Shown here: in pieces, positions 1 through 4,926 of the stretch
Numbering within the stretch: position 1 is the stretch's first letter
Layout of the letters: every line of letters starts with the position of its first letter
Source: Sphingomonas canadensis
Lineage (GTDB): Bacteria > Pseudomonadota > Alphaproteobacteria > Sphingomonadales > Sphingomonadaceae
Assembly: GCF_026013525.1 (NCBI RefSeq)
Contig: NZ_JAPDRA010000002.1
Location: forward strand, 1 to 64,000
Direction: 5' to 3'
DNA: 64,000 nucleotides
Notes under the pieces: model-generated
What the model was told of the DNA's origin: nothing
Seen by the model: only the letters and a program-made list of their open reading frames with translations
Databases searched by the model: none
Made by a program: the position numbers and the translations under genes

Positions 1-110
1 TCGATCTTGCGCGCGTCCTTGTCCACGCACACGACCTCATGGCCAAAATCCGAAAAACACGCCCCAGATACCAGGCCCACATAGCCCGTCCCTATCATCG
101 TGATACGCAA
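1..110 (-). CDS. ugd: UDP-glucose 6-dehydrogenase, N-terminal fragment
   Basis: The gene runs off the left edge; only about 36 codons are visible. The reading begins [16 protein letters not shown], the Rossmann NAD-binding start (GxGYVG) typical of UDP-glucose dehydrogenases, followed by [16 protein letters not shown]. The enzyme oxidises UDP-glucose to UDP-glucuronate, a precursor for acidic polysaccharides, which fits the polysaccharide locus further right. I chose a TTG start at 110 because AAGGGG lies about eight bases upstream and because the family normally has four residues before the internal Met; an ATG at 98 is the alternative. The other UDP-sugar dehydrogenases in the window (WecC and WbpA types) are clearly different proteins. 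Confidence 0.85.
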
Positions 111-224: not shown

Positions 225-254
225 AAAAAAGCCGCGTCCCACGAAGGGCGCGGC
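225..254 (-). terminator. Rho-independent terminator of the small minus-strand transcript
   Basis: Read on the minus strand, GCCGCGCCC pairs with GGGACGCGGC around a TTCGT loop, with one bulged A, and is followed by a run of six T. It lies about 78 bases beyond the stop of the 20-codon ORF and about 115 bases before the ugd start. It would therefore end a short transcript starting near 400-430, or attenuate transcription into ugd. Confidence 0.75.
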
Positions 255-266
255 CTTTGAAACCAT

Positions 267-318
267 CCGGGCCGGTCAGCGCTGCCTCACCAGTGAGACA
301 GCATCACCGCCGGCCCGG
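267..318 (-). ncRNA. Long hairpin in a candidate small RNA
   Basis: A perfect 9-bp outer stem (267-275 with 310-318) encloses an inner stem (281-290 with 293-302). One position of the inner stem is a G-U wobble when transcribed leftward but an A-C mismatch when transcribed rightward. That asymmetry supports the minus strand as the functional RNA. The hairpin sits between a tiny ORF (332-394) and a strong terminator (225-254), so the whole unit resembles a small-RNA gene of roughly 180-200 nt. I do not recognise a named RNA family. Confidence 0.5.
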
Positions 319-331
319 AAGTGGCGATCGT

Positions 332-394
332 TCAGAACGGACGAATGTCTTCGCCGCCCTCACCGTCGCGGAAGAAAAGGTTGAACGCGAACAT
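332..394 (-). CDS. Possible 20-residue peptide in the small transcript
   Basis: A 20-codon ORF reads MFAFNLFFRDGEGGEDIRPF and ends in TGA. GGGAG lies about seven bases before the ATG, a good ribosome-binding site. The peptide has a hydrophobic, aromatic N-terminal half and an acidic, glycine-rich second half. It has no signal-peptidase site and does not look like a lasso-peptide precursor. It could be a true small protein, a leader peptide controlling the downstream hairpin or ugd, or a chance ORF in a non-coding RNA. The RBS and the downstream hairpin plus terminator argue mildly against chance. Confidence 0.4.
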   Translation of the reverse strand: MFAFNLFFRDGEGGEDIRPF

Positions 395-411
395 CGTTAG
401 TCTCCCATCGT

Positions 412-425
412 GCGCAATTTTGCGC
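412..425. promoter_or_regulatory. 14-bp palindrome GCGCAATTTTGCGC
   Basis: GCGCAA and TTGCGC flank a two-base spacer. The palindrome lies between the small minus-strand transcript and the CtrA-type box, about 18 bases upstream of the small ORF start. It resembles a dimeric repressor operator, but no cognate regulator can be named. Confidence 0.4.
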
Positions 426-435
426 GATTCGGTGG

Positions 436-452: not shown

Positions 453-562
453 ATGATGCAATCCGGGATTCCACGATATTGCAGACTGTTAACCATTATT
501 AATCAGAGGTTAGCGGCAGACTTAACCGTTCCTTCAAGGCTGTCGGGCTAGTCCTCGGGCAG

Positions 563-2011
563 ATGTCTGCAGCGAGAGAGACAATAGTGGCCGCCGACGG
601 CAAAGCATCGCGCGCGAACGCCAATGCGGACGCGCGTGGCGGAACGCTGCCTGTGCGGCGCACGGCTGCGGAAATGCCCATGCATCCTGCGCGAAAAGCG
701 GCACGGCCCCGCCGGATGGCCGCGCGTAACGGCGCCGGCGCCGCCGCGTCGCGCGTGCCGGCTGCCGAGGGCCGCTACTGGCACGTGCTCTGCCTGTGCG
801 AGATCACCAACTTCGCCACGCTGCGCCGCCATCTGGGCAGGCCGCGCGCCGACCGGCTGTCGCTCGACGTGGCGGATCATATCCTTGCGCTTTGCCCCGA
901 TGCGCGGATTTCGTCGGCGGCGCGGTGGATGGTGGAGATCGCGTTCGAGCGTGAGGCGCCGGAACATGCCGCCGCCGATATTGACGCCCTGCGCCAGGCT
1001 TTCCAGCGCCCGCTCGACCTGGACGGCGAGGCGCATCAGTTGCAGATGGTGTTCGGCATCGCCGCCGCCCCGGCTTCCGAGACCGACGACGTCCGCCTTT
1101 CCGAAGCCGCCGAGACCGCGCTGGACGAGGCGCGCGGCGAGAACCGCGTGGTGATGCTGGACCTGTCGCGCGCCGACCTGGCGTTCGACAAGCTGACCCT
1201 GATGCGCGAGCTGCCACGCGCGATCAGCAATGGCGAGATGTTCCTGGCCTATCAGCCCAAGGTCCATGTCCGCCGCCAGGAGATCGCATCGGCCGAGGCG
1301 CTGATCCGCTGGCAGCATCCGACGCGCGGGCTGATCCTGCCCGGCGACTTCATCTCGGTGGCGGAACAGGCCGGCGAGATCGGCGCGCTGACGATGTGGA
1401 CGCTCGAGCAGGTGATCGCCGACCAGAAGCGGCTGGCCCAGGACGGGCACGATTTCCCGATCTTCATCAACATCTCCGGCGTGCTGCTGGCCGATTCGGT
1501 GTTCGTGGCCGAGGCGTGCGACCTGATCCGCCGCGGCGGCGCGCGCATCGGCTTCGAGATCACCGAGACCGCGGTGATCCGCGATCCGGACGTCGCGATC
1601 CGCCACCTCCAGCAGTTCGCCGACATCGGTGTCGAGCTGGCGATCGACGATTACGGCGCAGGCCTCTCTTCGCTCGCCTATCTGAAACAGCTTCCTGCGC
1701 GCGAGCTGAAGATCGACAAGATGTTTGTGCTGCAGCTTACCAGCAGCAATCGCGATCCGCTGATCGTGCGTTCCACCATCGATCTGGCGCACGCGCTGGA
1801 GATGGAGGTGACCGCGGAAGGCGTGGAGACCCCGTCGGCGCTGGCGCTGCTCAGCGTGATGGGTTGCGACATGGTGCAGGGCTTCCTGATCTCGCGCCCG
1901 CTCGCGATCGAGGCCTTCCGCCACTTCCTCGTCGAGGAGAACCCGCTGCTTTCGCCCGGCGGCGCGCAGCATTCGTTCATCCGCCCCGAGAGCTTCTGGA
2001 AGCGCGCGTGA
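563..2011 (+). CDS. EAL-domain c-di-GMP phosphodiesterase with degenerate GGDEF-like N-terminus
   Basis: A 482-residue protein. The C-terminal half is a complete EAL domain. EALIRW starts at about residue 245, the metal-binding Glu lies in FEITET (about 332), the Asp pair in IDDYGAG (362-363), the Lys in LKIDK, the Glu in TAEGVET and the Gln in QGFLISRP. All catalytic positions appear intact, so hydrolysis of c-di-GMP is expected. Residues about 70-220 look like a decayed GGDEF fold without a GGDEF motif. The first 60 residues are basic, Ala/Arg-rich and poorly supported, and the RBS is weak, so a later Met (for example residue 38 or 40) may be the true start. No membrane segment is seen. The stop overlaps the next gene (TGATG), implying translational coupling to the sensor kinase. 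Confidence 0.9.
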
Positions 2012-4473
2012 TGCGCGGCGCGCTGCGTCTGTTCTCCGCGGCGCTCCTGTGGCTCGCGGCGCTGGCGGCGATCCCCGGCGCGGCGCTGGCGCAACCCTTT
2101 CCCAAGCCGGTCGAGGACGCCTTTGCCGCCGCCAAGGCGGAGATGATGACCGACCAGCAGGCCACGCTGCGCCATGTGGCGCAGGCGGAGGCGCTGGCGG
2201 CGAAGCTGCCCGACGAGCGGCAGCGCGTGCTGGCGCTGGCCACCGCGCGCTGGCTGGCGGGCGAGGCGCACCTGCGATCCAACGCGCCGGACAAGGCCGC
2301 GCCGCTGCTCGCCCAGGGCCTGGCGCTGGTGAACGGCATCCGCGAGCCGATCAAGCTGCGCGGCGACCTGCTGATGTCGCAGGGCGCGCTGTTCATGCAG
2401 CGCGACCAGGCCGCGGAGGCGCTATCGAACTTCCAGCAGGCCTATTACATCTTCCGCGAGGTGAAGGAACCGCGCAGCCAGGCGATCGCCTATCAGAACA
2501 TGGCGACGCTCTATTCGACCGCGAACGACAACGAGAAGGCCGAGCAATATCTGCGCGAGGCCGCCGAGCTGTTCGACGGCGATCCGATGCTGTCGCTGTC
2601 GCTGCACAACAACCGCGGCAACGTGCTGCTGGTGCTCGAACGCTATCCGGAGGCGGAGGCCGAGCATCTGAAGGCGGTGGAGATCGCCCGCAAGCTGGGC
2701 AAGCCGCTGCTGGAGGCGCGCGTGCTGGTGAACCTGGTGCGCAGCCAGGTGAACATGCGCAAGTTCGCCGATGCGGAACGCACGCTGGCGCGGGGATTCG
2801 CGCTGATCCGCGATGCGGATGCGCCGCCGATGCTGCGCCGCCACCTGCTCGCCACCTCGGCGCGGATGGCGGCCGATCGCGGCAACTGGCGCCGTGCCAC
2901 CGAGCTGATCCGCGACGCCTTCGACGGCGTTGACCTGAAGACCACCTCGATCGACTATCGCAACGCCCATCTCTACGCGCATGAGATCTTCAGCCATGTC
3001 GGCGAGCCGGCGCTGGCGCTGCAGCATCTGGAGGCGCTCAAGCGGCTGAACGACGAATCGGCGAAGGTGGCGACCAGCACCAGCGCCGCGCTGATGGCCG
3101 CGCGCTTCGATACCGCGGGCAGGGAAGCCAAGATCGCGACGCTGCGCGCCGAGCAGGTGGAGCGCGCCGCACAGTTCCAGCGCACCATGTTCCTGAGCAT
3201 CGGCGCCGCCACGCTGGTGGTAATGGGCGCGCTGGCCTGGGGCCTGATCAGCATCCGCCGCAGCCGCAACAAGGTGCGCGCGGCCAATGTGGTGCTGGGC
3301 GAGACCAACGAGGCGCTGGAGAAGGCGCTGAAGGCCAAGACCGAGTTCCTGGCCACCACCAGCCACGAGATCCGCACGCCGCTGAACGGCATCCTGGGGA
3401 TGACCCAGGTGATGCTCTCCGATCCGAAGCTGGACGCGGGCACGCGCGACCGCATCGGCATCGTCCATGGCGCGGGCGTCACCATGCGCAGCCTGGTGGA
3501 CGACATCCTGGACGTGGCGAAGATGGAGACGGGTAACCTGACCGTGGACGCCGCGCCGATGGACCTGTGCGCGACGATGAAGGAAGTCACGCGCATGTGG
3601 GAGGAGCAGGCGCGCGCCAAGGGCCTGGCCTTTTCGCTGGACCTGGCCGATGCGCCGCACTGGATCGTCAGCGATGCCGGGCGGCTGCGGCAGATCGTGT
3701 TCAACCTTCTCTCCAACGCGATCAAGTTCACCGAGAAGGGCGCGGTGAGCGTGCGCGCGGCCGCGGAAGGGGAGGGCGACGCGCGGCGCCTGCGCCTGGA
3801 GGTCCGCGACAGCGGCATCGGCATTCCGGCCGAGAAGTTCGACGAGATCTTCGAATCGTTCAAACAGGCCGATTCGGGCACGACGCGCCGGTTCGGCGGC
3901 ACGGGGCTGGGCCTTACCATCTGCCGCAACCTGGCGCGCGCGCTGGGCGGCGACATCGCCGTGGAAAGCCGCGAGGGCGAGGGTTCGGCCTTCGCCGTCG
4001 ATCTGCCGCTGGTGCCCGCCGAGGCGCCCGAGCAGGAGGCCAAGGGCGCCGGCGCGGGCACGCTGCTGATCCTGGATCGCAATCCGATCGCGCGTTCGAT
4101 GCTGAAGACGCTGTTCGAGCCGCGCTTCGGCGCGGTGAAATTCGCCGCGAATCCCGATGAGGCCGCGGCTGAGCTGGCCGCGCCCGGCGTCACCCATCTG
4201 CTGGTCGACGAAATGACGTTGAAGGCCGCCGGGGAGGACCCGTTCGCGGCACTTGCGCCGCTGACGCGGGCAGCGGGCGATCTGGGCGCGCAAACCACGA
4301 TCCTGTGGCTGAAGCCGGACGATGCCGTGCGCGATGCGCTGGCGGCGGCCGGAATCGGTCAAGTCATTGAAAAGCCTGTGGCGGGGGCGGCTTTGGTAGA
4401 AAAAATCATTTCGGATACGAAAGAAAATTCCGACAGCCCGAGTCCGGGGCCGCTTGTTTCGCGCGCCGCATAG
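2011..4473 (+). CDS. TPR-sensor histidine kinase with C-terminal receiver-like domain
   Basis: The protein has 820 residues from the ATG that overlaps the EAL stop. It begins with a signal peptide ending near GAALA-QPF. A periplasmic helical TPR region covers about 30-370, and one membrane helix lies at about 392-413 (MFLSIGAATLVVMGALAWGL). A HisKA domain follows with SHEIRTPLNG (His about 452), then a HATPase_c domain (NLLSNAIKFTEKG, DSGIGIP, FGGTGLGL). The last 120 residues look like a receiver: Asp in LLVDEMT at about 733 and Lys-Pro in IEKPV, but the usual acidic pair and Thr are not clear, so it may be a pseudo-receiver. The same frame stays open upstream, but the signal peptide and the TGATG overlap fix the start at 2011. 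It probably signals to the receiver protein just downstream and, through it, to the EAL enzyme. Confidence 0.9.
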   Translation: MRGALRLFSAALLWLAALAAIPGAALAQPFPKPVEDAFAAAKAEMMTDQQATLRHVAQAEALAAKLPDERQRVLALATARWLAGEAHLRSNAPDKAAPLLAQGLALVNGIREPIKLRGDLLMSQGALFMQRDQAAEALSNFQQAYYIFREVKEPRSQAIAYQNMATLYSTANDNEKAEQYLREAAELFDGDPMLSLSLHNNRGNVLLVLERYPEAEAEHLKAVEIARKLGKPLLEARVLVNLVRSQVNMRKFADAERTLARGFALIRDADAPPMLRRHLLATSARMAADRGNWRRATELIRDAFDGVDLKTTSIDYRNAHLYAHEIFSHVGEPALALQHLEALKRLNDESAKVATSTSAALMAARFDTAGREAKIATLRAEQVERAAQFQRTMFLSIGAATLVVMGALAWGLISIRRSRNKVRAANVVLGETNEALEKALKAKTEFLATTSHEIRTPLNGILGMTQVMLSDPKLDAGTRDRIGIVHGAGVTMRSLVDDILDVAKMETGNLTVDAAPMDLCATMKEVTRMWEEQARAKGLAFSLDLADAPHWIVSDAGRLRQIVFNLLSNAIKFTEKGAVSVRAAAEGEGDARRLRLEVRDSGIGIPAEKFDEIFESFKQADSGTTRRFGGTGLGLTICRNLARALGGDIAVESREGEGSAFAVDLPLVPAEAPEQEAKGAGAGTLLILDRNPIARSMLKTLFEPRFGAVKFAANPDEAAAELAAPGVTHLLVDEMTLKAAGEDPFAALAPLTRAAGDLGAQTTILWLKPDDAVRDALAAAGIGQVIEKPVAGAALVEKIISDTKENSDSPSPGPLVSRAA

Positions 4474-4539: not shown

Positions 4540-4926
4540 ATGAACATCCTCTTCATCGAGGACGATCCGATGAACCGACGGGTCGTGAAAGACATGCTCG
4601 ATGTCGCCGGGGCCACCATGGCCGAGGCGGCTCTGGCCGAGGAAGGCCTGAAGCGAATCGACGAGGACGATTACGACGTCGTCCTGGTCGATCTGCGCAT
4701 GCCGGGGATGGACGGGATGGAGGCGATTCGCCGCATCCGCGCGCGCGGCGACGCCAAGGCCGAGTTGCCGATCATCGTCGTCACCGCCGATACCGCGATC
4801 GACCTGCGCGAACGCTGCCTGGAGGCGGGGGCCGACGATGTGCTGTTCAAGCCGGTGGCGATGGACGCGCTGTTCGATTCGATCGGCCGCGTGCTCGCGA
4901 TCCGCGGCGGCGGCGGGATACTGTAG
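4540..4926 (+). CDS. Single-domain response regulator (CheY/DivK-like)
   Basis: A 128-residue stand-alone receiver domain. The acidic pocket is E7-D8-D9, the phosphoacceptor Asp51 is in VLVDLRMPGMDG, Thr82 in IIVVTAD and Lys104 in LFKPV. There is no output domain, so it acts by protein contact or phosphotransfer, as DivK and CheY do. It lies 66 bases after the sensor kinase on the same strand, and the pair plus the EAL gene forms a likely operon. GGGCCGGGATCGG precedes the ATG as a moderate RBS. Confidence 0.88.
   Translation: MNILFIEDDPMNRRVVKDMLDVAGATMAEAALAEEGLKRIDEDDYDVVLVDLRMPGMDGMEAIRRIRARGDAKAELPIIVVTADTAIDLRERCLEAGADDVLFKPVAMDALFDSIGRVLAIRGGGGIL

Follow-up and report, generated by a model that had tools for sequence, protein, structure and literature searches.

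Small microproteins such as SidA, MgrB and Sda act on sensor kinases or on cell division, and SHP/Rgg and other RRNPP systems rely on peptide signals that are sensed by TPR proteins. The micro-gene described here resembles the SHP/Rgg and RRNPP systems in having an ORF of about 20 codons, a conserved C-terminus and the gene of a TPR protein alongside. Unlike in SHP/Rgg, however, the TPR protein is a histidine kinase encoded by the second gene of a divergent operon and the host is Gram-negative, and the tail of the predicted micropeptide is conserved whereas RRNPP signals have diversified. PMC7667032, on TimP, states that ORFs of fewer than 50 codons are generally left out of annotation, and the micro-gene has in common with SidA, MgrB, Sda and TimP that all are tiny genes which annotation tends to omit. 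It departs from these four in a peptide of 15-21 aa, a fixed G-x-x-[IL]-R-P-hydrophobic tail, a CtrA-type box and an ORF flanked by hairpins. With CtrA-controlled genes (PMC6180460 and PMC8921679), it shares the TTAA-N7-TTAA motif, found within one mismatch at 63 of the 67 loci detected by profile HMM; unlike in those genes, the predicted box lies ~57 nt ahead of a micro-ORF and overlaps a -10-like TAAC. Among the top-ranked papers of searches in open-access PMC, we recognised none that describes this peptide.

The unit, promoter included, occupies positions 225-461 on the minus strand of the window, by which we mean the whole 64,000-nt stretch of Sphingomonas canadensis DNA that was analysed. 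Its parts and the genes around it are as follows.

456-461, minus strand: -35-like element TTGCAT
436-450 (read 450-436), minus strand: CtrA-type full site TTAA-N7-TTAA, TTAATTTCCCGTTAA, read directly
438-433, minus strand: -10-like TAACCA, overlapped by the second half of the CtrA-type box
412-425, minus strand: palindrome of the putative 5' hairpin, GCGCAAAATTGCGC, read directly
401-406, minus strand: ribosome-binding site GGGAGA, read directly
332-394, minus strand: 20-codon ORF MFAFNLFFRDGEGGEDIRPF with stop TGA, read directly
266-319, minus strand: two-part hairpin with a 3-nt bulge and a bulged A, 12 nt past the stop codon
225-254, minus strand: intrinsic terminator with stem 254-231 and six T at 230-225, from sequence and fold
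1-110, minus strand: start of ugd, truncated by the contig end, from likeness to the gene at the same place in relatives
563-2011, plus strand: divergent EAL-domain gene (Pfam EAL E 5.9e-66; a GGDEF match just under the cut-off)
2011-4473, plus strand: TPR sensor histidine kinase (Pfam TPR_12, HisKA, HATPase_c)
4540-4926, plus strand: single-domain response regulator (Pfam Response_reg E 3.8e-29)

The ribosome-binding site, 20-codon ORF, two-part hairpin and terminator that the earlier note had read on the minus strand are all present, and the predicted fold of 425-220, 206 nt long, reaches -102.4 kcal/mol (z = -5.89; 0 of 200 shuffles did as well); the anatomy in the window exceeds chance. 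That note had placed the unit between the box and palindrome on one side and ugd on the other: all of these elements are there, but the box and palindrome belong inside the unit. Transcription would start near 426, with the 412-425 palindrome as the 5' hairpin of the mRNA. The gene at 1-110 we take to be ugd partly from knowledge of the family; it is cut by the contig end, the window beginning at contig base 1, so that the window cannot show the downstream genes of this genome. Rfam 15 gave no matches against the whole window at gathering thresholds, Pfam gave none for the peptide, and a peptide HMM found a single copy in the genome from which the window comes.

When 41 genomes were searched at the DNA level, two convincing relatives emerged (L003 and L004), whose peptides are 70% identical to that of the window. 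Other short BLAST matches were judged to be chance; L005-L010 and L014-L016 proved on inspection to be different sequence, and the judgement extends to the uninspected L011-L013. A pattern search matched 16 of 295 genomes of the genus at 17 places, one of these by chance, and a scan of named genomes gave 15 loci, nine with the 20-aa form, two with a 19-aa variant (in Sphingomonas sp. Leaf10 and S. lacusdianchii) and four by chance. The named carriers comprise Sphingomonas strains and species, Sphingosinithalassobacter portus and MAGs. Profile HMMs matched 72 of the 295 genomes at E 0.02 and 86 at E 0.05, and 81 of these 86 were counted as real, not all 81 having been read individually; G063 and G275 were dismissed on inspection, and G122, G181 and G187 from coordinates and open frames only.

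All 58 of the HMM-found six-kb loci have the EAL gene as their divergent neighbour, and we therefore examined the loci of this gene that lacked a real HMM match. At E 1e-80 it was present in 136 of 141 sampled genomes, 39 of which were HMM matches; the other 97 loci were examined in sets of 40, 12 and 45, and one of them was cut by a contig end, leaving 96 readable. Our detection rule called for an ATG start, a GGAG, 14-22 codons, a tail with P last but one and a hydrophobic end, and the box with at most one mismatch. This rule was satisfied at 92 of the 96 loci, and at 0 of 96 on the opposite strand. For the first 51 loci the rule had been composed after viewing examples; 50 of them passed, whereas neither the reverse strand (0 of 51) nor 20 rounds of dinucleotide shuffling (0) gave a pass, and the counts were again 50 and 0 when the tail requirement or the box requirement was lifted. 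The rule was then frozen before we turned to the last 45 loci; of these, 42 passed, with 0 of 45 on the reverse strand, where the control applied the strict rule and not the relaxed near-miss rules. The four near misses were a GTG start in the first set and, in the frozen set, a second GTG start, a Ser at -4 and a locus without a box within one mismatch. When near misses are included, the micro-ORF is found at all 96 readable EAL loci lacking a real HMM match, bringing the total to 163 loci with 142 distinct peptides of 15-21 aa. Collectively, these searches place the unit in the window within a family of micro-genes that extends throughout the sampled genus.

Beyond the genus, the A6 HMM run on 397 family genomes gave full-length matches in four same-genus genomes only, along with 8 weak partial matches, and the A7 HMM run on 40 other-genus genomes gave nothing full-length and 3 weak partial matches. 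EAL-homologue loci in 7 other genera carried the micro-ORF in 0 of 8 cases (four of the 8 were scanned twice). These outside-genus negatives carry little weight, since most members within the genus escaped the A6 HMM too. In two same-genus genomes that lack the EAL gene the A7 HMM had no match, likewise a weak negative. The EAL operon occurs in three other genera with no recognisable micro-ORF there, indicating that the operon does not need the micro-gene. In another genus, a 20-codon ORF with a ribosome-binding site, MSFLVGIISILFRDIPPWVD, lies upstream of an EAL-TPR kinase-receiver operon (L224:1524-1586, minus strand); it has neither box, RP-tail nor strong hairpin, and is possibly a distant relative of the micropeptide.

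The N-terminus of the predicted peptide is hydrophobic and of varying length, and the conserved positions keep their place relative to the stop codon. The 67 HMM-found loci, which did not have to contain the proline, all have P last but one; R/K stands at -3 in 63 of them, I/L/V at -4 and Gly at -7 in all 67, and they end in F (29), L (13), W (10), I (8), V (5) or Y (2). A GGAG, also not required there, stands before the start codon in 66 of these 67. The 96 rule-found loci, in which P last but one and a hydrophobic end were required by the rule, end in W (85), F (10) or V (1), and Gly at -7, which was free of the rule, occurs in 77 of them. Across all 163 loci the ORF spans 15-21 codons and its stop is TAA in 109 and TGA in 54. 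No signal peptide was evident by eye. Over 40 disjoint pairs, dN/dS was 0.306 and 141 of 241 differences fell at third positions, and the other two frames displayed no comparable constraint in the same pairs. By this measure the reading frame is under purifying selection, and the codon pattern led us to discard a purely noncoding RNA. The dN/dS of about 0.31, together with the conserved stems described below, bears out the earlier proposal of a discrete minus-strand unit with a genuine 20-codon ORF.

The CtrA-type box was not required in the 67 HMM-found loci, yet 48 carry an exact copy and 15 a copy with one mismatch, with 4 having none; in a control interval it was found in 0 of 162. Exact boxes no more than 150 nt away from the ATG number 115; their distances cluster at 50-70 nt (100 boxes, 80 of them at 55-60 nt), a further 11 fall at 89-95 nt, and 5 of the 163 loci have no box within one mismatch. 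The box stands 57.6 +- 2.1 nt from the ATG when sought only 40-75 nt from it, compared to 348 +- 30 nt from the EAL motif (motif in 37 of 58 loci). A TTG precedes the box by 11 nt in 91-94% of 100 distinct aligned relatives and was not required by the alignment, whereas conservation of TTAA in that alignment is partly by construction. The arrangement TTG-17 nt-TAAC reads as a sigma-70-like promoter with its -10 inside the box. PMC6180460 associates a CtrA full site near the -35 with activation and a half site over the -10 with repression. Since the full site covers the -10 here, this geometry slightly favours repression over activation, assuming that CtrA does control the micro-gene. The assignment as a candidate CtrA site draws on the cited motif, and with full sites near the -35 described for activation, the putative control could run in either sense.

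Folded structures flank the ORF across the family. Ahead of it, a perfect stem of at least 5 pairs is present in 82 of 118 loci, compared to 15.9 in shuffles (maximum 27), and 32 different 5-nt arms occur, some of them register shifts of one stem. The 80 nt past the stop have a mean z of -4.43 in the 118 loci, below -2 in 97%, compared to -0.20 for a control stretch and -3.36 for the reverse complement. In the 45 frozen-test loci, 40 lie below -2 against mononucleotide shuffles; L268 (-1.8) and the first copy in each of four arrays do not. A terminator-like site was found downstream at 87 of 118 loci, compared to 30 when the reverse strand was scanned and 17 after mononucleotide shuffling, and the remaining 31 yielded none. 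The window-type 3' hairpin was picked by motif at 28 of the 118 loci, and two rows were dropped (a mis-found 7-nt fragment and a shortened hairpin) to give 26 relatives. Among these, 11 of 23 pairs changed on both sides and 95.7% of cells pair, compared to 90.9% in shuffles, with two inner pairs broken in 11 and 9 sequences. The earlier note's remark that one base pair is valid, as G-U, on this strand only holds true, and the feature is conserved: one wobble pair is G-U in 24 relatives and A-U in 2, and a second is U-G in 26 of 26. Conserved stems with compensatory changes, which that note had proposed as a check, were found among the 26 relatives and across the 118 loci. A kink-turn in the 3' hairpin, weighed by eye, was dropped because diverged members do not retain the steps that it needs.

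Five genomes, belonging to one lineage, carry the micro-ORF four times in tandem. In these arrays (L234:339-618 on the plus strand, L296, L297, L298 and L300), four MFAFVLALIGFVGTTIRPW-type copies each have their own GGAG and share one box; in L300 all four copies end in IKPW, which looks like concerted change. The 80 nt past the last copy gave z values of -1.66, -1.53, -3.02, -2.95 and -4.23, so the hairpin is clear in three arrays and weak in two. The four-copy arrangement suggests that the peptide is the main product.

The genes on the divergent side are constant, with the TPR kinase and receiver present at 11 of 11 further same-genus loci. In the window's sensor kinase (2011-4473, plus strand) a likely membrane segment follows the TPR part, by eye, which may put the TPRs on the periplasmic side. 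On the other side, cysD stands directly in ugd's usual place at L106, L110, L119, L138 and L139, which carry a MQAFFALFRD-type peptide.

This variable side bears on the earlier suggestion that the unit is a leader in which translation of the ORF sets terminator formation and hence the reading of ugd. An ORF followed by a hairpin and a terminator has the layout of such an attenuator, and ugd comes next both in the window and, within 700 nt downstream, in 40 of 58 HMM-found loci; however, cysD follows in 8 and neither gene in 10 (one of which stops at a contig end, while another has ugd farther away), so that the unit is kept in 18 loci without ugd, whereas the EAL gene adjoins it in every one. 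We rejected attenuation on this synteny. Neither the MFE nor the centroid fold contains an antiterminator pairing, a promoter-like G[CT]TAAG seen by eye past the terminator would serve ugd itself, and four serial ORF copies are ill-suited to a cis leader, making this reading extremely improbable. The lack of a constant downstream gene as target also argues against nascent-chain arrest, in which the fixed C-terminus would stall the ribosome at the stop and the downstream hairpin would read the stall. Conservation anchored at the stop, the invariant proline in 67 of 67 HMM-found loci and a longest stem beginning a median of 11 nt past the stop are what one would look for in such a device, but in the four arrays tested the first copy has no hairpin behind it, and we consider arrest very unlikely.

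A dual-function RNA, coding for the peptide and also pairing with mRNAs or binding a protein through its 3' hairpin, would be consistent with the strong fold past the stop almost everywhere and with an outer stem and bulges that are near-invariant in sequence, and not just in pairing, among the 26 close relatives. Across the genus, however, the sequence of this hairpin changes completely while a fold alone persists, and no conserved unpaired seed was seen by eye, leaving a second function unlikely. A type I toxin-like membrane peptide, checked by a hypothetical antisense RNA, would suit the length of 15-21 aa, the existence of tandem arrays and the 40 of 111 peptides whose N-terminus is strongly hydrophobic (mean Kyte-Doolittle 2.54 over the first 9 residues, overall mean 0.94). 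The remaining 71 peptides are only weakly hydrophobic (overall mean 0.12), the tail is fixed, and HMM searches find one copy per genome at one fixed locus, not scattered; we regard a toxin as distinctly improbable.

We therefore favour a translated micro-gene with a CtrA-type box that acts as a peptide, at a probability of roughly 0.72. An independent, conserved micro-gene with such a box is well supported, and its translation is very probable. In the proposed mechanism, a promoter whose -10 is covered or adjoined by a CtrA full site would drive a very short mRNA that begins in a hairpin and carries a strong ribosome-binding site. This mRNA would yield a peptide of 20 residues, hydrophobic at the N-terminus and fixed in its tail, and the 3' hairpin and terminator would end the message and probably also protect it. 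The codon pattern and arrays point to an action in trans, and the CtrA-gated microprotein would then act on the neighbouring EAL signalling module. That the partner lies in this phosphodiesterase/TPR kinase/receiver module or in the CtrA relay is a tentative and rather doubtful assignment, suggested by the fixed neighbourhood; the large differences in hydrophobicity among lineages are awkward for a single partner. A dedicated peptide ligand of the TPR sensor kinase of the divergent operon, working inside or between cells, would be a long shot.

PMC8921679 links CtrA, a phosphodiesterase, c-di-GMP, gum and motility in Sphingomonas sp. WG, where a kinase mutant has a phosphodiesterase gene up together with ctrA; this may or may not be the EAL gene considered here. 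This link of CtrA, phosphodiesterase and c-di-GMP makes the EAL module a sensible place to look. Were the ligand reading true, it would tie CtrA timing to c-di-GMP in a Gram-negative genus through an SHP/Rgg analogue built on a histidine kinase. The micro-gene itself offers a compact, testable case of a microprotein whose position ties it to CtrA and c-di-GMP circuitry, and the fixed tail of its predicted product provides a handle for the partner search.
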